DNA of 64,000 nucleotides from Catenulisporales bacterium (GTDB lineage: Bacteria; Actinomycetota; Actinomycetes; Streptomycetales; Catenulisporaceae). This document shows positions 1 through 43,942 of this stretch, piece after piece (positions within the stretch are counted from its first letter, which is position 1; every line of letters starts with the position of its first letter). A model generated the notes under the pieces. The model ran no database searches. It was not told the DNA's origin and saw only the letters and a program-made list of their open reading frames with translations. The translations under genes and the position numbers were made by a program. The stretch lies in the NCBI GenBank assembly GCA_019510485.1, contig JAEKKI010000175.1, forward strand, positions 1-64,000, read 5' to 3'.

Positions 1-3000
1 CGTCAATTCGTCTTCCGTACGAAGCATCGTGGCGGCCAGACCGCTGACCCGGTCCCAGATCCGGACCGTCTCGCCTTCGGTGGTGGCCAGCCAAGCGCCG
101 TCTGGGCTGATCGCTACCGAATTGGGCGCTCTGGGATGCCGGAGGGTGGCCGTCACAGTACCGTCGGCCACATTCCAGATCTGCGCCATGGGATCGCTCA
201 TGCTGGGGGTGATGGTCGCCAGCCACGTGCCGTCCCGACTGATCGCCACCGAGTCCACGGGGGAGTCGTGGCGCAGGGTGTTGATGACGGTGCCGCTGGC
301 TAGATCCCATATCGATACGGTGTCCCCGACGTACTCCGAAATACTGGTGAACTCCGATGCAGCGGTGACGGTCACCAGCCGGGCACCGTCCGGGCTGATG
401 ATTGCGGAACGCACCCGGCCGGGGTGTTCCAGGGCGGCGGTGACGGTACCGGAGTCCGGGGCCCAGATCCGCACCGTCCGCTCAACGCTGTCGGTGGTGG
501 CCAGCCAACTCCCGTCCGGGCTGATCGCCACCGACCCCAGCCGGCGGTCGTGGTGGAGACTGGCGGTGACGGTGCCGTCGGCCAGATCCCAGATGCGCGC
601 TGTCCCGCCGCCATCGTCGATGGTGGCCAGCCAGGTGCCGTCGGGACTGATCTCCACTGACGACATCAGCCCTACCTGTTCCAGGACCGCTGTGACGGTT
701 CCGCTGGCCCGGTCCCAGATCCGCACCCTCCCTACGTCGCCGTCCCCAGTGGTGGCCAGCCACGTGCCGTCCGGACCGATCGCCACCGACCACACCGATC
801 TGTTGTGTGCGGCGGTGGCGGCGATCGCGGTGTCGGCAGTCAGATCCCAGATCCGCATCTCCCCTCGATAGGCGCCGGTAGTGGCCAGCCAGGTACCGTC
901 CGGGCTGATGGCCATCGACAACACCGGTTCGCTGCAGTGGAGGATGCTAAGGGGAACGCGGCGAGCCACATCCCAGATGTGCACTGTCCCGTCGTAGATG
1001 CCGGAGACTGTGGTGGTCGTGGCCACCCACTTGCCGTCCGGGCTGATCGCCACCGAAAACGCCGTGCCGTGGTGGTAGAGGTTGGTGATCACCGTGCCGC
1101 TGATCGGGTCCCAGATGCGCACTGTCCCGTCGCCGCGGACCGTGGTCGCCAGTCTGCTGCCGTCGGGACTGATCGCCACCGACCGCACTGCATCGTCGTG
1201 GTGGAGGGTGGTGGTCAAGGTCCCGCCGGCCCGGTCCCAAATCCGCACTGTGCCATCGCTGTCGGAGCGGCCGGTAGTGGCCAGCCAGGTGCCGTCCGGG
1301 CCGATCGCCACGGAACCCGCCGAGTAGTCGTGGCCGATCGTGGCGATGAGGGCGCCGCCGGCCACATCCCAGATCTGTATCGAGCTGTCCGCGCCGACAT
1401 CGTCGTCAGGGTCGACCGTGGTGGCCAGCCAGGTGCCGTCCGGGCCGATCGCCACCGACCGCACTGGATCGTCGTGTTCGAAGGCGGCGGTCATGGTGCC
1501 GGCGGCCCGGTCCCAGATGCGCACCGTCTTGTCCCAGGCGCCGGTGGTGGCCAGCCAGGTGCCGTCCGGACTGATCGCGACTGAATTCGCTCCGCGGGAC
1601 GCGATCAGGACCCGGCGCATCGCCGGGTCGGGCAGGTCCGGCGGATCCCAAAGGTTGCGCAGCACCGGCAGGCAAGCCGGTGCTTGCCCGAGCCTGGCGA
1701 CCTGCTGCCGCCAGGCGGGAAGCGGCGCCAGACGGCTGTGCAGGATGGCGGTCAGGGCGTGGGCTGGGTCGGTCGGCGTCAGCAGGTGGGCGATACGCAT
1801 CAGGTCCCTGGCTCTGCCCGCGGCCGCCGACGTGCCGATTAGTTCCAGGTCCTTGATCGCGGCTGTCGGACCGCGCTGAAACAGCCGCGCTCCGATCCAC
1901 CGCAGGTCAGCGGCCAGCATCTCGGCCTGGTCGGCGTATCCGGCATCCAAGAGGTGCTCGATCCCGTGGTCCAGCACAAAACCCTCGTCGCTTTCCCACC
2001 AGGCCGGCATCGTCGAGCCTTCGGGATCCGCCGCAGCGGTGGGCAACCCTTCGGCCAAGCGGTCCACCAAGGCGGCGTTGGCCTCCTGAATGCGCTCGGC
2101 GCCCAGCTCGGCCCGTAGGTAGTCTCGGATGACGTCGTGCATGCCCAGCCGTCCGCCGTCAGCGGGATCCCACCTGATCAGCGACAGTTCGGCCAGCGCC
2201 AGACACAGATCCCCGGCGTGGCGGGCGGTCAGGCCTGCGGTGCCCGCCCAAAGGGCGGCGACCAGCGCGGCGGGCACGGCCTCGTCCGCGGCGAACACCC
2301 CCAGCTCGGCAAGGCGGACCCGGTCGTGGGAAGGGTCGGAGAGCAGGGTGACCGAGGCCTCGATCGTGGCCCGGACTGAAGCGGCCCGCTGCTTGCGGGC
2401 TCCGAAGTCCACCGCGAGGGCTGGGTCATCCACCGCCGCCGGACCGGCCTGGCGCAGCGCCTCCCATAGGCCGGAGGCCGCAACGTCGGGCGTGTCACCG
2501 CGGCGTATGGCTTTGGCGATGTACTGGTTGGCCAACCGCAGCAGCAGCGCCCACCCGCCTGTGGCTTCCAGCAACTCCGCCACGACCGGCGCAGGCAACG
2601 TCGGCAAGTCCCGGAGCAGCACCCTCCGAGCCTGCTGCGGAGACATCCGATCGACTTCGATCCGTTCGGCGTCGGCCGGCAGCACACCGGGGATACGCGT
2701 GGTGACCAGCCGCACACATCGTTCTCGGGCACCGATCAGGAACGGCGCCAACTGTTCGGCTTCCCATACGTCGTCCAATACGAGCAGCGTGCGTGGCCGC
2801 GCGGCCAGCAACCGGCCCAGATGTGCTCCGGCCATCTCCGGATCGTCGAACGCTGTCTCGTCGCCGGTGATGAACTTCGTCGCCTGAGCAACCTTCGCCG
2901 CGATCGCCGCCGACCCCCGCACGTCGCGGCCGATCGTCACCTCATAAACCCGCCCGCCGAACACTCGCCGCAGCCGGCGATCGGCCCGAACCAGATCGGC

Positions 3001-34071: not shown

Positions 34072-35055
34072 TCATCCGGCCCCTGATCCGGCCATCGCCG
34101 CCGCCCCGGCCCGCGGCAGGATCCGGTCGGCGTAGAACTCGAAGAAGTCCTCGTAGCGCGGGCCCACCGAGCCGATGTAGATCTCGTCGAAGCCGGCCTT
34201 CTCATAGGCGTCGATCGCCTCCAGGTGGACTCCCGGATCGTCGCCGCAGGGGAACTCCTTGGCCACCGCCTCGTCGCCGACCAGCGTCGAGGCCTGTTCG
34301 AAGTGCGACATGCTGGGCAGGACCCGGCCCAGCTCCCCCGGCAGCACTTCGCTGGCCCACAGCCGGCGCACCGTCTCCACCGCCCGCTGCCGGTCGGAGT
34401 CGACGCACGCCTTCAAACCGCCGATGACCGGCTTGCCGACTCCGCCGGCGCCCCGGAAGACGTCGATCGTCTGCCGGTTGGGCTTCATGGTGATCAGCCC
34501 GTCGCCGATCCGCCCGGCCAGTTCCGCGGCCTTGGGCCCGAACGCCGACACGTAGACCGGCGGCGGCTGGAGCGGCAGGGTGTAGAGCTTGGCGTCGCGC
34601 ACCGTGTAGTGCTTGCCCTCGTGGAAGACCGCACGGCCGCTGAACAGCTGCCGCATGACCCGCACGGCCTCGTCGAGCATCTCGGCGCGGATCCGGAAGT
34701 CCGGCCAGACGTCGCCGAGGATGTGCTCGTTGAGCGCCTCGCCGGTGCCGACACCGAGCCGGAAGCGGCCGTGGGTCAGCACGGCGGAGGTGGCGGCGGC
34801 CTGCGCGATGATCGCCGGGTTGACGCGCACGGTCGGGCAGGTGACCAAGGTGGTCACCGGCAGGTCGGTGGCCTCGGACAGCGCACCGATCATGGACCAG
34901 ACGAACGGGCTGCTGCCCTGCGCGTCGGTCCACGGGTGGTAGTGGTCGGAGATCGCCAGCCGGGTGAAGCCGGCCTGCTCGGCCATCCGGGCCTGGCGCA
35001 GCAGGTCGGCGGGCTGGTATTCCTCGCAGGACAGGAAGAATCCGTATTCGGGCAC
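34072..35055 (-). CDS. F420-dependent luciferase-like oxidoreductase (FGD-type)
   Basis: 327 residues of the LLM TIM barrel: F-F-L-S-C-E-E-Y near the N-terminus, S-D-H-Y-H-P-W-T, G-T-G-E-A-L-N-E and F-G-P-K-A-A-E-L-A-G-R-I-G-D-G. These resemble F420-dependent glucose-6-phosphate dehydrogenase relatives. GTG 35055 has AAGGGAG upstream. The gene has a stress-type promoter and, between it and the start, copy 1 of the leader repeat. Confidence 0.87.
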   Translation of the reverse strand: MPEYGFFLSCEEYQPADLLRQARMAEQAGFTRLAISDHYHPWTDAQGSSPFVWSMIGALSEATDLPVTTLVTCPTVRVNPAIIAQAAATSAVLTHGRFRLGVGTGEALNEHILGDVWPDFRIRAEMLDEAVRVMRQLFSGRAVFHEGKHYTVRDAKLYTLPLQPPPVYVSAFGPKAAELAGRIGDGLITMKPNRQTIDVFRGAGGVGKPVIGGLKACVDSDRQRAVETVRRLWASEVLPGELGRVLPSMSHFEQASTLVGDEAVAKEFPCGDDPGVHLEAIDAYEKAGFDEIYIGSVGPRYEDFFEFYADRILPRAGAAAMAGSGAG

Positions 35056-35072
35056 GGTGTGCTCCCTTCTCA

Positions 35073-35112
35073 TGACGAATGTCGGCTCCGCCGACGGCTC
35101 GGATCGGCTGAG
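35073..35112 (-). repeat. Leader repeat, copy 1
   Basis: In gene sense it reads CTCAGCCGATCCGAG, then C-GTCGGC-GGA-GCCGAC and ATTCGTCA. Two overlapping stems are possible. It lies 17 nt before the start codon of the F420-type oxidoreductase and just after the predicted transcription start. Confidence 0.8.
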
Positions 35113-35127
35113 GCACAACGCAATGCG

Positions 35128-35152
35128 CTGCCCCGATGGGCCCACGCCAAAC
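35128..35152 (-). promoter_or_regulatory. SigB/SigF-type promoter of the F420-type oxidoreductase
   Basis: Minus strand: GTTT (35152-35149), 15-nt spacer, GGGCAG (35133-35128). It ends 16 nt before leader repeat copy 1. Confidence 0.6.
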
Positions 35153-35157
35153 GGCCT

Positions 35158-35913
35158 TCAGGGCCACGACACCTCGGTCCGCGGGATCACCACGACCTCG
35201 GGCACCAGGCTCTCGGCCGGCACCGAGAGCACGAACCGCACCACATCGGCGACGTTCGCCGGATCCTGCAGCAGCGCGGGATCGGTGTCCGGGAACCGGT
35301 CCATGATGAAGGGGGTGCGCATCCCGCCGGCGATGACGCCGGTGATCCCCACCGCCGGGCAGTCCCGCCGCGCCTCCTGGAACAGCACGTGCGTGAACGC
35401 GCGCAGCCCGGTCTTGGCGGCGCTGTACAGACCCGCTTCGGTCCAGGTGCTGACCGCGGCGGTCGACAGGATGTTGATGATGTGTCCGCTGCCGGCCGCC
35501 ACCATGCGCCGATAGGCGGCCAGGCACAGGTACACCGGCCCGAGCAGGTCGGTACCGACCACCTTGTCCGCGTCCTCGGGTGTGAGATCGGTCACCGGCA
35601 GCGTGACGTCGACCGCCGCGTTGTTCACCAGCACGTCCAGCGATCCGGACTCGGCGTGGATCCGGTCCACCGCCGCGGCGGCCTGGCCGGCGTCGCGCAC
35701 GTCGAGCACCAGGGGCAACACGGTGCCGGTGTGCGAGGCCAGCCCGTCGAGCAGCCGGTCCAGCGCGTCGCCCCGCACGTCGGCGGCCCACACGGTGGCA
35801 CCGGCGGCGGCCAGCCGCTCGGTGACCGCTGAGCCCAGCCCGCCGCCCGCGCCGGTCACCAGCGCGATCCGGTCGGTGAGCATCTTGTCGTTGTCGGCGT
35901 ACCCGGCGTTCAT
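35158..35913 (-). CDS. Short-chain dehydrogenase/reductase
   Basis: 251 residues: T-G-A-G-G-G-L-G as the cofactor loop, N-N-A-A-V-D, I-N-I-L-S-T-A-A-V and the catalytic Y-S-A-A-K with the upstream Ser. Active-site residues are complete. Substrate unknown. GGGAGG precedes ATG 35913. Leader repeat copy 2 and a stress-type promoter lie upstream; the F420-type oxidoreductase gene follows on the same strand but has its own promoter. Confidence 0.9.
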   Translation of the reverse strand: MNAGYADNDKMLTDRIALVTGAGGGLGSAVTERLAAAGATVWAADVRGDALDRLLDGLASHTGTVLPLVLDVRDAGQAAAAVDRIHAESGSLDVLVNNAAVDVTLPVTDLTPEDADKVVGTDLLGPVYLCLAAYRRMVAAGSGHIINILSTAAVSTWTEAGLYSAAKTGLRAFTHVLFQEARRDCPAVGITGVIAGGMRTPFIMDRFPDTDPALLQDPANVADVVRFVLSVPAESLVPEVVVIPRTEVSWP

Positions 35914-35931
35914 CAGACCTCCCTGATTTCG

Positions 35932-35967
35932 TGACGAATGTCGGCTCCGCCGACGGCTCAGATCGGC
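35932..35967 (-). repeat. Leader repeat, copy 2
   Basis: Identical to copy 1 except one base over 36 nt (GATCTGAG for GATCCGAG), with GTCGGC-GGA-GCCGAC. It lies 18 nt before the SDR start codon. Confidence 0.8.
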
Positions 35968-36003
35968 GACGCGGCGCTCCCGCGCCGTAGCCGCGCCCGC
36001 CCT

Positions 36004-36028
36004 GTCACCGCGTTGAGCTGGTTCAAAC
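36004..36028 (-). promoter_or_regulatory. Possible SigB/SigF-type promoter of the SDR gene
   Basis: Minus strand: GTTT (36028-36025), 15-nt spacer, GGTGAC (36009-36004). The -10 deviates from GGGNAN. Leader repeat copy 2 follows downstream. Confidence 0.4.
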
Positions 36029-36050
36029 CCCGGCGGCTTCGGCGCGAACC

Positions 36051-36076
36051 GTTTCAGTGGCGATCCAGTGGGGTAG
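36051..36076 (+). promoter_or_regulatory. SigB/SigF-type promoter of the sugar epimerase gene
   Basis: GTTT (36051-36054) and GGGGTAG (36070-36076), spacer 15-16 nt; the best match to GTTT-N15-GGGTA in the window. 58 bp before ATG 36134. Confidence 0.65.
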
Positions 36077-36133
36077 AGCCGGGCCTCCCCGCCGCGGACG
36101 CACGCGGCGCCCAACGGCAGGAAGGCGGACCGA

Positions 36134-37129
36134 ATGGCTACGCGGCGGACGTTCGACCGGGCCGTGGTGACCGGCGGCGCGGGTTTCCTGGGCTCGCACC
36201 TGTGCCGGGCGCTGGCCGCCTCCGGTACCGAGGTGATCTGCGTCGACAGCTTCTTGACCAGCCCGAAGGACCTCGACGGCGGCGGGCTCGACGACCCCAA
36301 CGTGGTGGTCGTGCGCCGCGACGTCAGCGAGCCGTTCCCGATCCCGGGCCCGGTGGACCTGGTGCTGCACTTCGCCTCCCCGGCCTCGCCCGCGGACTAC
36401 CAGCGCTATCCGATCGACACCATGCGCGCCGGCAGCCTGGGCACCCTGCACGCCCTGGACCTGGCCCGGGACAAGGGCGCCAGATTCGTCCTGGCCTCCA
36501 CCTCCGAGGTCTACGGCGACCCGCTCGTCCACCCGCAGCCGGAGGACTACTGGGGCAACGTCAACCCGGTCGGGCCGCGCGCGGTCTACGACGAGGCCAA
36601 GCGCTTCGCCGAGGCCCTGACCACCGCCTACCGGACCCGGCACGGCGCGGACACCGCGATCGCGCGGATCTTCAACACCTACGGCCCCGGCATGCGGGCC
36701 GACGACGGCCGCGCGGTGCCGACGTTCATCGCGCAGGCCCTGGCCGCCGAACCGCTCACGGTGACCGGCGACGGGCGGCAGACCCGCTCGATCTGCTACG
36801 TGAGCGACACCGTCGCCGGGATCCTCGCGCTGGCCGCCTCGGGCGTGCCGGGACCGGTGAACATCGGCAACCCGGAGGAGATGAGCATCCGCGCCCTGGC
36901 CTCGCGGATCGCCGGCCTGGTGGCCGAGCTGACCGGGGTGGAGGCGCAGCCGCTGCGGTTCGTGGACCGGCCGGTCGACGATCCCGGCGTGCGCCGCCCC
37001 GACATCTCGCGGGCCGCCGCCGAACTCGGCTGGCAGCCGCGGGTCGGGTGGCGCGACGGGCTGGCGCGGACCGTGGCCTGGTTCACCGAACACCGCGCCC
37101 GGCTCACCGACGCCGTCGGCGCCGGTTGA
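36134..37129 (+). CDS. NAD-dependent nucleotide-sugar epimerase/decarboxylase (UDP-glucuronate decarboxylase-like)
   Basis: 331 residues, extended [32 protein letters not shown] and the catalytic Y-D-E-A-K, then [10 protein letters not shown]. The A-S-P-A-S-P and E-V-Y-G-D-P signatures point to UXS-type UDP-glucuronate decarboxylases. No HldD-type epimerase is seen in the heptose locus; this enzyme could supply another sugar to the same glycan. GGAAGG precedes ATG 36134. Confidence 0.85.
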
Positions 37130-37140
37130 CGCATCCGAGC

Positions 37141-37165
37141 CGCCGCCGGCCCGGAGCCGGCGGCG
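37141..37165 (+). terminator. Hairpin after the epimerase gene
   Basis: CGCCGCCGGC-CCGGA-GCCGGCGGCG, a perfect 10-bp stem 12 bp past the stop. A second small hairpin (GGCTCCGC/GCGGAGCC) follows near 37183-37200, before the carbamoyltransferase start. Confidence 0.55.
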
Positions 37166-37228
37166 CGCACATTCACCACCGGCTCCGCCCGGCGGAGCCC
37201 CCACACGGACACGAAGGATGGACACCAC

Positions 37229-38866
37229 ATGCGGGTGCTGGGTTTGAACGCCGTCTTCCACGATCCGGCCGCGGCCCTCGTGATCGACGGGACCGTCGTC
37301 GCCGCCGCGGAAGAGGAGCGGTTCAGCCGCCGCAAGCATGGCAAGCGCCCCGTGCCGTTCTCCGCCTGGGAACTCCCGGAGCAGGCCGCGGCGTGGTGCC
37401 TGGCCGAGGCCGGGCTGACGCCGGCCGACATCGACATCGTCACCTACTCCTACGCGCCGCATCTGTGCCGGCCCGCTGAGGAGATGGGCATCCACGATCC
37501 CTGGGACCACTTACGGCAGATGTATGTGAACCACGCTCCGTCGTTCATCACGACCATGCTGCCCGGCCTGGACCCCCGGGCGGTCCAGTTCGTTCCGCAC
37601 CATGTGGCGCACGCCGCGTCGGCCGGCCTGGCCACCCCCTACGGCGACAACAGCGTCCTGGTCTGCGACGGCCGCGGCGAGGCCACGTCCTATCTGGCCG
37701 GCCGCTACCGCGACGGCGAACTGGAGATCCTCGCCTCGCAACGGCTGCCGCACTCGCTGGGACTGTTCTACGAGAACGCCACCGAACATCTGGGATTCCT
37801 GCGATCCAGCGACGAGTACAAGGTCATGGCCCTGGCTTCCTACGGCACCCCGGAGTTCGCCGGGGAGCTGCGCAAGGCGGTCCGGGCGACCGGCGACGGC
37901 GGCTTCGTGACCGAGGCGGTCGACTTCGCCGCGCTCACCCCGGCACGCTCACCGGAGGAGGGCTGGACCCGGCAGCACGCCGACTTGGCCGCGAGCGTCC
38001 AGCTGGTGCTGGAGGAGACGCTGCTGGAGCTGGCGCTGTGGCTGCACGACCAGACCGGGGACCGGGTGCTGACCATGGCCGGCGGCGTGGCGCTGAACTG
38101 CGTCGCGAACTCCCGGCTGGCCGCGGAGGGGCCGTTCGAGAAGCTCTGGGTCCAGCCGGCGGCCGGCGACGCCGGCACCGCGCTGGGCGGGGCGCTGCAC
38201 GCCGCGCACGGCGTCGGCGATCTCACGCAGCCGATGCCCGGCGCGGACCTGGGACGCGGCTGGGACGACGCGGCACTGGAGAGCGCGCTGCGCGCCGCGC
38301 GGCTGCCGTACACCCGCCCCGACGACATCGCCGAGGAGGCCGCCGCCGCGCTGGCCCGCGACGAGATCGTGGCCTGGTTCCAGGGCCGCAGCGAATTCGG
38401 GCCGCGGGCGCTGGGCCGCCGCTCGCTGCTGGCACACCCCGGCAACGCGGCGAACCTGGAGCGGCTCAACGCGGTCAAGGGACGGGAGACCTTCCGGCCG
38501 GTGGCGCCGATGGTGCGGCTGGACCGCGCCACTGAGATCTTCGACGGCCCGGTTCCGAGCCCTTACATGCTCTTCGTGCACGACGTCGCCCCGCAGTGGC
38601 GGACCCGGATCCCGGCGGTGGTCCACGTCGACGGCACGGCCCGGATCCAGACCGTCGACCCGGCCCGCGAACGGCTGCTCACCGGTCTGCTGGCGGCTTT
38701 CGAAAGACGCACCGGCTTGCCGGTGGTGGTGAACACCAGCCTGAACACGGCGGGCCGGCCGATGGTCGACTCCCCGCGCGACGTGCTGGAGTGCTTCGGC
38801 TCGGCGCCGATCGACCTGCTGGCCATCGGACCGTTCGCCGTGCGGCGCACGGAGGTCGGGCGATGA
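37229..38866 (+). CDS. NodU/CmcH-family carbamoyltransferase
   Basis: 545 residues. The N-terminal Kae1-like part starts V-L-G-L-N-A-V-F-H-D-P-A-A-A-L and has V-P-H-H-V-A-H-A-A-S-A with the metal-binding H-x3-H. The C-terminal domain has G-R-S-E-F-G-P-R-A-L-G-R-R-S-L-L and N-T-S-L-N. These enzymes transfer carbamoyl from carbamoyl phosphate to sugar hydroxyls. It starts the heptose/glycan operon; the next gene overlaps its stop (ATGA). AAGGA is ten bases before ATG 37229. Confidence 0.92.
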   Translation: MRVLGLNAVFHDPAAALVIDGTVVAAAEEERFSRRKHGKRPVPFSAWELPEQAAAWCLAEAGLTPADIDIVTYSYAPHLCRPAEEMGIHDPWDHLRQMYVNHAPSFITTMLPGLDPRAVQFVPHHVAHAASAGLATPYGDNSVLVCDGRGEATSYLAGRYRDGELEILASQRLPHSLGLFYENATEHLGFLRSSDEYKVMALASYGTPEFAGELRKAVRATGDGGFVTEAVDFAALTPARSPEEGWTRQHADLAASVQLVLEETLLELALWLHDQTGDRVLTMAGGVALNCVANSRLAAEGPFEKLWVQPAAGDAGTALGGALHAAHGVGDLTQPMPGADLGRGWDDAALESALRAARLPYTRPDDIAEEAAAALARDEIVAWFQGRSEFGPRALGRRSLLAHPGNAANLERLNAVKGRETFRPVAPMVRLDRATEIFDGPVPSPYMLFVHDVAPQWRTRIPAVVHVDGTARIQTVDPARERLLTGLLAAFERRTGLPVVVNTSLNTAGRPMVDSPRDVLECFGSAPIDLLAIGPFAVRRTEVGR

Positions 38867-40743
38867 ACGGCGGTAACGCGAGCGCTGCCGACTACGCCGT
38901 AGTGGTCCCCACCGTCGGCCGAACCAGCCTGCAACGCTGCGTCGACGCCGTGGCCTCGGCCGCCGGACCGCCGCCGCGGATGGTGGTGATCGCCGACGAC
39001 CGGCCGCCCGGGGCCGATCCGCTGCCGCTGACCGCGCCCGCGCTGCTGGCCGACCGGCTGCATGTGGTGTCCAGCGGCGGTCGCGGGCCGGCCGCCGCGC
39101 GCAACGCCGGCTGGCGGCTGACACCGCCGGAGTGTGCGTGGATCGTGTTCCTCGACGATGACGTCGAAGTGGCGCGGAATCCGCCGTGGCGGCGCCGGCT
39201 GGCCCACGACTTGGATCAGGACCCGTCAGTCGGCGGGGTACAGGGCTTGGTCGACGTCCCGTTGCCGGAACGCCGCTCCCCCACCGACTGGGAGCGGAAC
39301 ACCGCGGCCCTGGCCGACGCCCGGTGGATCACCGCCGATATGGCCTACCGCCGCGCGGCGCTGGTCGACGTCGGCGGCTTCGACGAACGCTTCCGGCACG
39401 CCTACCGCGAGGACACCGATCTCGCGCTGCGGGTGCAGGAGGCGGGCTGGCGGCTGGAGTACGGCACCCGGCGGACCTCCCATCCGGTGCGGCCGAACCC
39501 GGGGTGGTGGGCCAGCGTCCGGGCGCAGCGCGGTAATGCCGACGACGCTTTGATGCGGCGTCTGCACAGTGCCGACTGGCATCTGATCGCGGGTGTCCCG
39601 ATCGGCCGGCGTCCGGTGCACGCGCTGGTCACGGCGACCGGTCTGGCCGCCGCCGGGGCGTTCTCCCGCGGCCGCCGCGCGGCCGGTGCCGCGGCCGCGG
39701 TGCTGTGGGCGGCCGGCACCGCCGAGTTCGCCATGACCCGGATCCGGCGCGGGCCGCACGCACCCGCCGAGATCGCGGCGATGGTCGCGACGAGTGTTCT
39801 GATTCCCCCCGCGGCAGTGTCCTGGTATCTGGCCGGGGTGTGGCGGTACCGCACGGCGGCGCCTTGGCCCCGGAGGCCGGCGGCTGTGTTGTTCGATCGG
39901 GACGGGACACTGGTGCGCGATGTGCCGTTCAACACTGATCCGGCGTTGGTGGAGCCGATGCCTGGTGCGGTCGAGGCGGTGCGGCGGCTGCGTGGTGCCG
40001 GGATCCGGGTCGGTGTGGTGACGAACCAGTCCGGGATCGCGCGGGGGCTGATCAGTCCGGCGCAGTTGGAGCAGGTGAACGAGCGCGTCGAGGAGTTGTT
40101 CGGGCCCTTCGACGCCTGGGCGGTGTGTCCGCATGTGGATGCGGACCGTTGTGACTGCCGCAAGCCGGCACCGGGGTTGGTGACGCGGGCTGCTGAGCGG
40201 CTGGGTGTGGAGACCGCCGACTGTGTGGTCGTCGGCGATATCGAGGCCGATATCGGGGCGGCTCGGGCTGCTGGGGCGCGGGCGATTCTGGTGCCGGTCG
40301 CGACTGCTTCGGGCGAGGCGGGGGTGCCGGAGATGTTGGCGCCGCCTGGTGTGCCGGTGGCGGTCGCGCGCGATCTGCCCGAGGCTGTGGATCGGATTCT
40401 GGCTGGCGCGGTCAGCGCCGCCGACGAGTCCGATGACGATGCGGCCGGCGGGTTCGCTCGCAAGTTCGGCGCTCGCAGGCGCGGCGATCTGGGCCGCCTG
40501 AGCGAGGCGATCGGCACGTTCGAGGACGTGATCAGCAGCGGCTACCGGGCGGCCGGCGGCTCGGGTGCCGGCGGCTCCGGCGCGGGCGAGCCCGGTGGCT
40601 CAGGTGCGCGCGGCTCTGGCAGCTCGGATGCGGGCAAGCCCGGCACGAACGGTTCTCGCGGCTCCGGCGCGAGCGGCTCGGGTGGCTCCGGCGCGAGCAG
40701 GCCCGGCGGCTCCGGCGGCTCCGGCACGAGGAGAGCCCGATGA
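38863..40743 (+). CDS. Fusion: GT2 glycosyltransferase + GmhB-type heptose bisphosphate phosphatase
   Basis: 626 residues. Residues 1-240 are a GT2 (GT-A) domain: V-V-V-P-T-V-G-R, A-R-N-A-G-W and F-L-D-D-D-V-E-V, Y-R-E-D-T-D-L-A-L-R. Two or three hydrophobic helices follow (about 245-325). From ~340 a HAD domain: L-F-D-R-D-G-T-L-V with nucleophile Asp, V-T-N-Q-S-G-I-A-R-G and the zinc-type C-P-H-V-D-A-D-R-C-D-C-R-K-P typical of GmhB, which dephosphorylates heptose 1,7-bisphosphate. The last ~110 residues are acidic and then Gly/Ser/Ala repeats. ATG overlaps the previous stop. Confidence 0.88.
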   Translation: MNGGNASAADYAVVVPTVGRTSLQRCVDAVASAAGPPPRMVVIADDRPPGADPLPLTAPALLADRLHVVSSGGRGPAAARNAGWRLTPPECAWIVFLDDDVEVARNPPWRRRLAHDLDQDPSVGGVQGLVDVPLPERRSPTDWERNTAALADARWITADMAYRRAALVDVGGFDERFRHAYREDTDLALRVQEAGWRLEYGTRRTSHPVRPNPGWWASVRAQRGNADDALMRRLHSADWHLIAGVPIGRRPVHALVTATGLAAAGAFSRGRRAAGAAAAVLWAAGTAEFAMTRIRRGPHAPAEIAAMVATSVLIPPAAVSWYLAGVWRYRTAAPWPRRPAAVLFDRDGTLVRDVPFNTDPALVEPMPGAVEAVRRLRGAGIRVGVVTNQSGIARGLISPAQLEQVNERVEELFGPFDAWAVCPHVDADRCDCRKPAPGLVTRAAERLGVETADCVVVGDIEADIGAARAAGARAILVPVATASGEAGVPEMLAPPGVPVAVARDLPEAVDRILAGAVSAADESDDDAAGGFARKFGARRRGDLGRLSEAIGTFEDVISSGYRAAGGSGAGGSGAGEPGGSGARGSGSSDAGKPGTNGSRGSGASGSGGSGASRPGGSGGSGTRRAR

Positions 40744-41679
40744 GCGGCGTGCTCGCGGTGCGGCTGGACGGCATGGGCGACGTCCTGCTGGCCGGTCCCG
40801 CGATCCGCGCCCTGGCGGCGGGTGGCGAGCCGGTGACGATGCTCGTCGGCCCGGCCGGTGCAGCGGCGGCCGAGCTGCTGCCGGGAGTCGGCGAAGTCCT
40901 GGCCTTCGACGCGCCGTGGGTCGCCGCCGATCCGGTGCCGTACAACGCGCAGCAGGCCGAAGCCCTGATTCACGACGTCGGTCGAGTCGGGCCCGATCAC
41001 GCCGTGATCTTCACTTCCTTCCACCAGTCATCGCTGCCCACCGCACTGCTGTTACGGATGGCCGGAGTGCGGACTGTCTCTGGCGCGTGCCGCCGGTTTC
41101 CCGCTACCGGACGGCGACGACGGCGCTCTGGCCGTACGGTCACCGCTGCCTGCCCCAGGCCTGCTCGACCACCTCGCCGACTACGTCGTCGTGCACCCGG
41201 GCTGCACGGCCCCGGCCCGCACATGGCCCGCCGAGCGGTGGGCCCTGGCGGTGGCCGCGTTGAGCGAGGCCGGATACCAGGTCGTCGTCACCGGCGGGCG
41301 CGCCGAATGTCAGCTCACCGCGGCCGTGAGCCGTGGCGCGCCCGATGCCATGGACCTCGGCGGCCGCACCACGCTTCCCGAACTGGCCTCAGTACTCGCC
41401 GGCGCCCGAGTCGTGGTGGCTCCCAACACCGGTCCGGCCCACCTCGCCGCCGCCGTCGGCACGCCGGTGGTCAGTCTATTCTCCCCGGTGGTGCCCGCCG
41501 TGCGCTGGGCGCCTTACCGAGTGCCGTCAGTACTGCTCGGCGATCAAGAAGCCGCGTGCGCCGGATCACGCGCCCGGGAGTGCCCGATCCCGGGCCACCC
41601 CTGTCTCAACGGCGTCTGGCCGGAAGACGTGGCGGCGGCGGTCGCCAAGCTCATGCCGGCGGCGGGTGCTGCCGCATGA
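40740..41679 (+). pseudogene. GT9 heptosyltransferase-like gene with internal deletion and frameshift
   Basis: The first 110 codons are a GT9 N-terminus (V-L-A-V-R-L-D-G-M-G-D-V-L-L-A-G-P). At about 41075 the frame changes: frame +1 continues L-A-R-A-A-G-F-P-L-P, Y-V-V-V-H-P-G-C, P-N-T-G-P-A-H-L-A-A-A and ends at 41679. Around 30-40 residues of the linker (usually P-G-S-L-L-D-V-R-H-R) are lost at the junction. The original frame stays open to 42662 and reads into the next glycosyltransferase, so a 640-residue chimera could be translated. The heptosyltransferase itself should not be made intact. ATG 40740 overlaps the previous stop. Confidence 0.8.
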
Positions 41680-42662
41680 GGATCCTGATGTGGCACGTCC
41701 ACGGTTCCTGGACCACCTCGTTCCTCCAGGGCCCGCACACCTGCCTGCTGCCCGTGACCGCCGACCGCGGACCGGACGGCCGGGGCCGGGCCCGTACCTG
41801 GGACTGGCCCGCGACGGCCGTCGAGATCCCCTTCGACGCCCTCATCGAGCAGGACTTCGACGTGGCGCTGTTGCAGCGTCCTGAGGAGTTCGACTTGGTC
41901 CGGGCGCTGACCGGCCGGGTTCCGGGCGTCGACGTGCCCGCGGTGTACGTCGAGCACAACACGCCGGACGGACCCGCGGCGACCAGCCGGCATCCGATGG
42001 CGGACCGGCCGGGGCTGCGGATCGTGCACGTGACGCCGTTCAACGATCTGATGTGGGACTGCGGCTCCACCCCGACCACCGTCGTGGAGCACGGGATCGT
42101 CGATCCCGGATACCGCTACACCGGCTCGGTCCCCCGCTGCGCGGTCGCCGTCAACGACCCGGTCCGCCGGGGACGGGTGACCGGCACCGACCTGATCCCG
42201 GGCTTCGCCGGCACCGCCGGGCTGGACGTGTTCGGCATGCGGGCGTCAGAGCTGGAAACGGCGACGGCCGATGTCCGGTTGTTCGAAGACCTGCCGCAGC
42301 ACGAGCTGCACCAGGAGATGGCCGAGCGGCGCCTGTATCTGCACCTGTCGCGCTGGACCTCCCTCGGGCTCTCGCTGCTGGAGGCGATGCATCTGGGGCT
42401 GCCGGTCGTCGCCGTCGGGACCACCGAGGCGTACGCGGCCGTGCCGCCGTCGGCCGGAACGGTCTCGACCAGCGTCGCGGACCTGCGCACCGCCGTCCGG
42501 AGGCTGATCGCCGATCCGGCACTGGCCCGCGAACAGGGCGCCGCCGCCCGGCAAACGGCGCTGGAGCGCTACGGGATCAAGAGATTCGTCGCGGACTGGA
42601 ACCGACTACTTGAGGGGCTCAGCCGATCTGAGCCGTCAGCGAAGCCGATGTCTGCAAATTAA
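41676..42662 (+). CDS. Glycosyltransferase, GT4-like
   Basis: 328 residues: M-R-I-L-M-W-H-V-H-G-S-W, V-Y-V-E-H-N-T-P, V-V-E-H-G-I-V-D-P and a C-terminal L-S-R-W-T-S-L-G-L-S-L-L-E-A-M-H-L-G-L-P-V-V-A, the E-x7-E donor-binding motif of GT4. ATG 41676 overlaps the GT9 stop (ATGA). The last dozen codons are encoded by copy 3 of the leader repeat, so the natural C-terminus has probably been extended. Same frame as the N-terminal part of the damaged GT9 gene. Confidence 0.82.
   Translation: MRILMWHVHGSWTTSFLQGPHTCLLPVTADRGPDGRGRARTWDWPATAVEIPFDALIEQDFDVALLQRPEEFDLVRALTGRVPGVDVPAVYVEHNTPDGPAATSRHPMADRPGLRIVHVTPFNDLMWDCGSTPTTVVEHGIVDPGYRYTGSVPRCAVAVNDPVRRGRVTGTDLIPGFAGTAGLDVFGMRASELETATADVRLFEDLPQHELHQEMAERRLYLHLSRWTSLGLSLLEAMHLGLPVVAVGTTEAYAAVPPSAGTVSTSVADLRTAVRRLIADPALAREQGAAARQTALERYGIKRFVADWNRLLEGLSRSEPSAKPMSAN
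42618..42655 (+). repeat. Leader repeat, copy 3 (inside coding end)
   Basis: CTCAGCCGATCTGAG then CGTCAGC-GAA-GCCGATG. It is divergent from the other copies at the stem (one mismatch and one G-U pair). It forms the last codons of the glycosyltransferase and stands nine bases before copy 4. Confidence 0.8.
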
Positions 42663-42664
42663 AG

Positions 42665-42702
42665 CTCAGCCGATCTGAGCCGTCGGCGAAGCCGACGTCT
42701 GC
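42665..42702 (+). repeat. Leader repeat, copy 4
   Basis: CTCAGCCGATCTGAG then CGTCGGC-GAA-GCCGACG; perfect 7-bp stem. It ends 22 nt before ATG 42725, the same placement as copies 1 and 2. Confidence 0.8.
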
Positions 42703-42724
42703 TATGAAAATAGGAGTCTGTCTC

Positions 42725-43942
42725 ATGAGGATCGCCCTCGTCTCCGAGCACGCGAGCCCGCTGACCCAGCCCGGCGGCGTGGACGCCGGCGGCCAGAACG
42801 TGCACGTGGCCGCCTTGGCCGCGAGCCTGGCCGGGCAGGGGAACCAGGTGTCGGTGTTCACCCGCCGCGACGGTTCCGGCCATCCGGACCGGGTCCGTAC
42901 GCCGGCCGGCTACGACGTCGTCCACCTGCGCTGCGGCCCGGCCGAAGACCTCCCCAAGGACGATTTGCTGCCGCACATCCCCCAGTTCGCCGAGGATCTG
43001 GCGCGGGCCTGGTCGGCGGACCCGCCGGAGGTGGTGCACGCCCACTTCTGGATGTCCGGCCTGGCCGCGCTGACGGCGGCGGCCGACCTCGGGATCCCGG
43101 TCGTGCAGACCTACCACGCGCTCGGCTCGGTCAAGCAGCGGTATCAAGGCACTGCTGACACCAGTCCGGAGCACCGGATCGAGAGCGAACGGGACATCGG
43201 TCTGGGCTGTGCCCGGGTGATCGCCACCAGCCGCGACGAGGTCGGGGAGCTGGCGGCGCTGGGCGTGGATCCGGCCAAGGTGACGGTGATCCCCTGCGGC
43301 GTGGACGTGGATCGCTTCTCGGCGCACGGGCCACGCTCCCCCCGCACCCCGCGGAACCGTTTGGTGGCCGTCGGGCGGCTGGTGCCGCGCAAGGGTTTCG
43401 ACACCGCGATCCAGGCGCTGGAGCAGCTGCCGGACGCCGAGCTGGTGATCGCCGGCGGTCCCGATTCCCAGGACCTGCGCGATGATCCGGAGGCGATCCG
43501 GCTGATGATCGAGGCCCGCAAGGCGAAGGTCCAGGGCCGGGTGCGGCTGCTGGGCCGGGTGTCGCGGGCACTGATGCCGGCGCTGCTGCGATCGGCCGAC
43601 GTGGTGGTGAGCACGCCGTGGTACGAGCCGTTCGGGATCGTGCCGCTGGAGGCGATGGCCTGCGGCCGGCCGGTGGTCGCCACCGCGGTCGGCGGACAGT
43701 TGGACACGGTGCGGGACGGCGTGACCGGGCACCTGGTGCCGCCGCGCGATCCGGACGCGCTCGCCGCGGCGCTGCGTCCGCTGCTGGCGGACCGGTCGCT
43801 GCGCGAGGCGTTCGGCGCGGCGGGAAACCGCAGGGTCCTGCGGCACTACACGTGGCCGCTGATCGCCCGGCGCAGCACCGAGATCTATCGCCGGGCCATC
43901 GCGACGGCGGAGCGGGGCCTGCCGCTGGCGGTCGGATCGTGA
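42725..43942 (+). CDS. GT4-family glycosyltransferase
   Basis: 405 residues: V-S-E-H-A-S-P-L, G-G-Q-N-V-H-V-A-A-L-A, V-V-H-A-H-F-W-M-S-G, V-V-A-V-G-R-L-V-P-R-K-G-F-D and the donor motif S-T-P-W-Y-E-P-F-G-I-V-P-L-E-A-M-A-C-G. Resembles sucrose-phosphate-synthase-like/MshA-like enzymes. TAGGAG is eight bases before ATG 42725; the upstream ATG 42704 lacks a site. It opens the second part of the glycan operon, with GmhA and HldE translationally coupled downstream. Confidence 0.9.
   Translation: MRIALVSEHASPLTQPGGVDAGGQNVHVAALAASLAGQGNQVSVFTRRDGSGHPDRVRTPAGYDVVHLRCGPAEDLPKDDLLPHIPQFAEDLARAWSADPPEVVHAHFWMSGLAALTAAADLGIPVVQTYHALGSVKQRYQGTADTSPEHRIESERDIGLGCARVIATSRDEVGELAALGVDPAKVTVIPCGVDVDRFSAHGPRSPRTPRNRLVAVGRLVPRKGFDTAIQALEQLPDAELVIAGGPDSQDLRDDPEAIRLMIEARKAKVQGRVRLLGRVSRALMPALLRSADVVVSTPWYEPFGIVPLEAMACGRPVVATAVGGQLDTVRDGVTGHLVPPRDPDALAAALRPLLADRSLREAFGAAGNRRVLRHYTWPLIARRSTEIYRRAIATAERGLPLAVGS

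Follow-up and report, generated by a model that had tools for sequence, protein, structure and literature searches.

A Palindromic Repeat of About 45 nt in Gene Leaders and Protein Genes of a Catenulisporales Genome: a Probable Miniature Insertion Sequence

INTRODUCTION

The textbook example of selfish DNA within proteins is provided by the Rickettsia palindromic elements (RPEs). Described from Rickettsia, these elements measure 105-146 bp, form long stem-loops, and occur both between genes and in frame inside conserved protein genes; what moves them is unknown (PMC2229807). Bacterial MITEs (Correia/NEMIS, ERIC, and RUP) are mostly 100-200 bp long and carry terminal inverted repeats and a target site duplication (PMC2229807). 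REPs lie mainly downstream of genes, are marked by an unpaired GTAG or CGTC tag, and are intragenic in some cases; their dimers are arranged head-to-head or tail-to-tail, head-to-tail order being rare in most genomes (PMC3733652). The GTAG type goes with the Y1 transposase RAYT; the CGTC type, with its unpaired CGTC at one end and a stem of 8-9 bp, has no dedicated transposase (PMC3733652).

We describe here a repeat of about 45 nt that is very probably a non-autonomous miniature palindromic insertion sequence, recently spread in one lineage of its genus. It has two features expected of palindromic mobile repeats in the broad sense, namely lineage-specific dispersed copies and empty orthologous sites. 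In behavior its nearest parallel is the RPEs, with which it shares a palindromic make-up, dispersal, intergenic and in-frame intragenic copies, and an open frame. We do not file it as an RPE because length and structure differ: it consists of only about 45 nt in two short abutting hairpins, and its host is an actinomycete, with no sequence kinship shown. Like REPs it is a short stem-loop repeat with some intragenic copies, and REPs of the CGTC type are likewise without a transposase of their own; unlike REPs it lies mainly upstream of starts, forms head-to-tail tandems, and is found in a genus in which ten genomes hold no RAYT. Compared with the CGTC type in particular, the GTC of its CGTC string is paired in hairpin 2, and its stems are shorter. 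With MITEs it shares small size, non-autonomy, and a place beside genes (some MITEs also fuse in frame), but its consensus has no terminal inverted repeat. Finally, it recalls attenuator or riboswitch leaders in lying just upstream of start codons and in having two competing folds on paper, but it is not conserved at orthologous leaders, its alternative fold lacks covariation, and it is also intragenic and antisense. Within the papers covered, a search for RPE-like elements in actinobacteria or for repeats in Catenulispora returned nothing relevant. The element is an RPE-like case in a free-living (soil) actinomycete genus, and it combines an empty site of exactly 45 nt with tandem growth and the absence of RAYT.

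GENOMES AND SEARCHES

The window is the whole 64,000-nt stretch of contig JAEKKI010000175.1. Its own genome (G000; 5.53 Mb in 326 contigs, 77% complete, 0.57% contaminated), the one genome of this species compared, belongs to a genus that we take to be Catenulispora, and nine congeners formed the comparison set. The census rests on searches across the genome contigs and on retrieved stretches. A mixed bin was rejected as the source of the copies, given the low contamination and the close orthologs that element-bearing genes have in congeners.

THE ELEMENT AND ITS COPIES IN THE WINDOW

The four copies proposed by the sequence-only reading are all present, at 35078-35105 (-), 35937-35964 (-), 42625-42652 (+), and 42672-42699 (+), where chance would give none (100 shuffles); Table 1 lists the full units and the adjoining genes. 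The gaps of 17, 18, and 22 nt to the start codons of the oxidoreductase, SDR, and GT4 genes are exact for an element of 38 nt. The conserved hairpin unit stands, but the proposed size of about 38 nt does not: the unit really covers about 45 nt, as two hairpins and a tail. Likewise, the copy placed at 42618 exists but is no simple leader copy, since it forms the in-frame 3' end of an ORF (41688-42662) whose last residues, ..LLEGLSRSEPSAKPMSAN and the stop, it encodes. The promoters predicted upstream of the first two copies were not recovered, a sigma-70-type consensus scan of 34900-43000 giving no site, though scans of this kind may miss promoters of actinomycetes. The window contains no Rfam match.

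Table 1. Copies of the element in the window and the genes next to them.
Feature	Position	Strand	Covariance-model score
Element copy, 45-nt unit, leader of F420-dependent LLM-class oxidoreductase (GTG start 35055)	35071..35115	-	63 bits
Element copy whose hairpin 1 has a degenerate 5' arm, leader of SDR-family gene (ATG start 35913)	35930..35974	-	56 bits
Tandem pair, copy 1, in frame at 3' end of glycosyltransferase-like ORF 41688-42662 (..GLSRSEPSAKPMSAN, stop)	42615..42659	+	61 bits
Tandem pair, copy 2, leader of GT4-family glycosyltransferase (ATG 42725)	42662..42706	+	67 bits
F420-dependent LLM-class oxidoreductase (TIGR03557), downstream of a copy	34072..35055	-	
SDR-family oxidoreductase, downstream of a copy	35158..35913	-	
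GT4-family glycosyltransferase, downstream of the tandem pair	42725..43942	+	
Glycosyltransferase-like ORF, last codons supplied by element copy 1	41688..42662	+	

The consensus unit, (GG)GCTCAG-CCGAT-CTGAGC-C-GTCGGC-GNA-GCCGAC-ATTTGTMATA, comprises two abutting hairpins with stems of 6-7 bp and a semi-conserved tail (ATTTGTMATA), followed by purines. Hairpin 1 is a DNA palindrome (GCTCAG-CCGAT-CTGAGC) of nearly invariant sequence. The two-hairpin fold of the consensus (-21.6 kcal/mol) has almost the energy of one long hairpin (-21.3 kcal/mol), formed when GTCGGC takes the first AGCCGA as its partner, at a mean pair probability of about 0.34. The two exclusive pairings that the sequence-only reading had likened to attenuators are therefore thermodynamically possible, but the alternative helix is without covariation: among variants, double changes are absent from it and just 82% of its cells are paired. 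A first alignment of 35 copies was too alike to carry a covariation signal. Across ten variants, the family from other genomes included, 95% of the cells are paired in the two-hairpin fold, and hairpin 1 shows double changes that keep pairing (2 pairs, 4 cells); these are suggestive of kept pairing, at a level not beyond that of shuffles (45/500 and 173/500).

CENSUS AND PLACEMENT IN THE GENOME

A genome-wide search and a covariance model had both been proposed with the first reading, and both were carried through: the model finds 38 near-identical copies of at least 30 bits in G000, at about 29 sites, mostly before genes. At several sites the copies follow one another head to tail in twos, threes, or fours, repeating every 47-53 nt. 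A pattern search of 60 relatives gave matches only in the own genome and in G003. Covariance-model matches near 25 bits in G004, G006, and G001 were taken as chance; they lie within shared ABC-transporter coding sequence. An exact-pattern match to half an element was seen in a Dactylosporangium MAG (contig JABDRL010000111, near 2687-2710, minus strand), where it runs antisense to the final part of a polyphosphate-kinase-like gene; it could be due to chance, to transfer, or to mis-binning of the contig.

By our reading of the gene calls, which come from a small codon-usage caller and may be off for individual starts, 15 of the 29 sites are in sense between co-directional genes and four are antisense in the same setting (C80, two on C120, and one on C193); three are intragenic and in sense, and the other seven separate divergent genes (six sites) or convergent genes (one site). 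The informative sites are thus 18 in sense against 4 in antisense (p=0.004), a bias toward leaders and sense that is real but moderate. At 14 of 19 sense sites the hairpin ends 22-37 nt ahead of the start codon. Among the genes that follow a copy are pgk, ruvB, ino1, and transketolase (tkt), and, by translation, pyrD, ispG, moaA, and a GGDEF protein; no common pathway links them. The pgk leader carries four tandem copies, preceded by a terminator-like hairpin that belongs to the neighboring gene upstream. The copies are clearly dispersed by insertion, as a REP-like repeat would be, but their placement is not random with respect to starts, as leaders and sense orientation predominate.

EMPTY SITES IN RELATED GENOMES

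The element is absent from the orthologous leaders of all congeners examined for pgk (eight), pyrD (nine), ino1 (nine), and an alanine-racemase-like gene (six). At pyrD the junction in G000 reads CTGA[GGGGCTCAG..ATTTGTCATA]GAGAGGTGCC, or, with the insert written otherwise, CTGA[GGGGCTCAG..GCCGACATTTGTCATA]GAGAGGTGCC, against the same empty site, CTGAGAGAGGTGCC, in G002 and G008. In a tree built from Hpt plus FtsH, G000 falls between G003/G005 and the seven other congeners. Since G000 is nested among element-free relatives, these copies are gains in its lineage; together with the empty orthologous leaders, this makes them lineage-specific insertions and not a conserved riboregulator.

G003 and G005 carry two tandem copies of a variant, CAGCTCAG-CCGAT-CTGAGCTG-C-GTCGGC-AGC-GCCGAC-ATnGTTC, between hpt and ftsH, directly after the hpt stop codon and about 150 nt from ftsH. 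The leader is otherwise conserved, and the site is cleanly empty in G000 and seven congeners. In G005, one copy gives the stop codon to one gene (..AQPI, stop) and sits in the leader of the next. A copy stands in front of ruvB in both G000 and G001 with different flanks, and these may be two separate events.

Some further features of these leaders were noted in passing. The ten members of the genus share a strongly conserved stretch of about 160 nt ahead of ftsH (GGAATGACACTCC..CGCGCGGGAACGCAGTGACCGCGTACGGTCGTTAGGCA), which could itself be a regulatory leader or promoter region. A stretch upstream of ino1, conserved in all congeners (CCCGTTTCCCCCGGGCGCGG..ATGAAGGAGAAACCG), may reflect a leader peptide or the true start of ino1. 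In G006 a different tandem hairpin repeat (CCTCGGCGCCGAGGTATCTCG..) fills the pyrD leader, so that other small palindromic repeats may have spread in the genus.

COPIES INSIDE PROTEIN GENES

Three conserved genes, for RibF, a helicase, and an alpha/beta hydrolase, each contain one copy, and these inserts are missing in four to seven congeners per gene. The helicase insert is exactly 45 nt, GGGCTCGGCC..ACACTTGGGAAG, between CCCGGG and AAGTGG, and is absent from five congeners. Relative to congeners, the inserts in ribF and the hydrolase gene measure 54 and 51 nt, not 45, so the ends are less exact there; exact ends were obtained only in the helicase, and nearly exact ones in pyrD. No clear target duplication is present at these two resolved junctions, a further difference from MITEs. 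In RibF and the hydrolase the element peptide falls in linkers, and the congener linkers are without it; for a RibF of known structure that lacks the peptide, PDB residues 140 and 161 flank the site and correspond to our residues 140 and 184. Although four frames are open in the unit, the three intragenic copies, like the window copy at 42615, are all read in a single one of them, with the peptide GLSRSEPSAEPTxVI (..SRSEPSAEP..).

MOBILITY, TARGET PREFERENCE, AND OTHER EXPLANATIONS

A REP-like mobile palindrome was one of three possibilities raised from the window alone, and it is the one supported by the empty sites in relatives, the unrelated genes, and the intragenic and antisense copies. 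We infer that an enzyme acting in trans moves the element, probably by recognizing single-strand hairpins, and that insertion would occur in purine-rich sites (about GAR before and ARA after the element), for instance the Shine-Dalgarno tract on the sense strand. Gene-breaking insertions would be lost, leaving survivors mainly just upstream of starts and in sense, others persisting in protein linkers that tolerate about 15 extra residues; tandem copies would arise by local duplication after insertion. Regulatory side effects of the copies are possible, and effects on expression or mRNA stability would be a by-product unless shown otherwise. No mobilizing enzyme was identified: PF01797 (Y1/RAYT) is absent from the own genome and nine congeners, five control genomes being positive, and REP-RAYT mobility was accordingly set aside for these ten genomes. 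A phage or plasmid origin was rejected as well, with no match in viral contigs, plasmids, or phages, and so was a longer parent transposon with half-element ends, a left-half search returning almost only full copies and a few matches with 2-3 mismatches. Carriers and non-carriers in the genus offer a test of both the mover and the target rule.

Such a target preference would fit the copies that face no start codon, where the first 8 nt of the right flank are 85% purines, a figure from nine sites, which are few, and from a tract that may partly be the element's own 3' end. In the 40 nt before starts, runs of eight purines number 14.5 per kb on the sense strand but 2.9 per kb on the opposite strand; other intergenic DNA has 3.0 per kb and coding sequence 1.3-1.7. 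With such a preference and the loss of gene-breaking insertions, survivors would be expected in leaders and in sense, so that purine-rich targets explain the bias at least as well as regulation does. In this sense, a hairpin recurring before many starts need not be a riboregulator, as a preference for purine-rich targets can by itself bring a mobile repeat there, in sense.

The leader and sense bias may nonetheless reflect a selected function. The palindrome may have entered by transposition and then been domesticated, being kept in sense leaders where its RNA hairpins stabilize the mRNA or tune translation. Besides the sense bias, the peak in start-codon distances, the array before pgk behind its neighbor's terminator-like hairpin, and the pairing-keeping changes in hairpin 1 would agree with this; but the strand bias of purine runs matches the sense bias, the double changes stay within shuffles, the target genes have no common pathway, and the ftsH-leader copies of G003 and G005 hug the hpt stop, about 150 nt from ftsH. 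Domestication is on balance unlikely. A bolder version, in which the mover targets Shine-Dalgarno tracts and thereby wires pgk, pyrD, tkt, ino1, and ruvB into a common post-transcriptional response, strikes us as very unlikely; were it true, each insertion would bring a two-state RNA hairpin to a new gene within one lineage.

An attenuator-type cis-regulatory leader RNA, whose GTCGGC would pair with either the upstream AGCCGA or the downstream GCCGAC and so switch the downstream gene, draws on the near-equal fold energies and the sizeable probability of the alternative pairing. It is extremely improbable in view of the element-free leaders of orthologous genes in congeners, the poorly paired alternative helix devoid of double changes, the copies inside genes, in antisense, and between convergent genes, and the missing Rfam match; moreover, a palindrome built on the repeated motif AGCCGAY yields the alternative pairing for free. 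Just as hard to credit is a dispersed DNA site for a protein (a transcription factor or nucleoid protein) that was never an inserted repeat: the nearly invariant palindrome of hairpin 1 would suit it, but about 45 nt are conserved as one block, spacer and tail included, and the block entered in one piece, relatives having empty sites, and occurs in tandem arrays and within coding genes.

CLUSTERING OF SITES

Sites of this putative insertion sequence are clumped, for example on contigs C64, C120, C162, C168, C193, and C292. Nine pairs of neighboring sites fall within 10 kb, whereas 20,000 random placements gave 1.4 such pairs on average and never more than 7; this suggests that the element spreads locally or prefers certain regions. 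The C-terminal part of a CobA-like methyltransferase is encoded twice in near-identical form, at G000:C168:411-590 and G000:C120:23927-24124, and the copy on C120 has an element directly behind it; the pair may reflect either a duplicated gene or an assembly effect.
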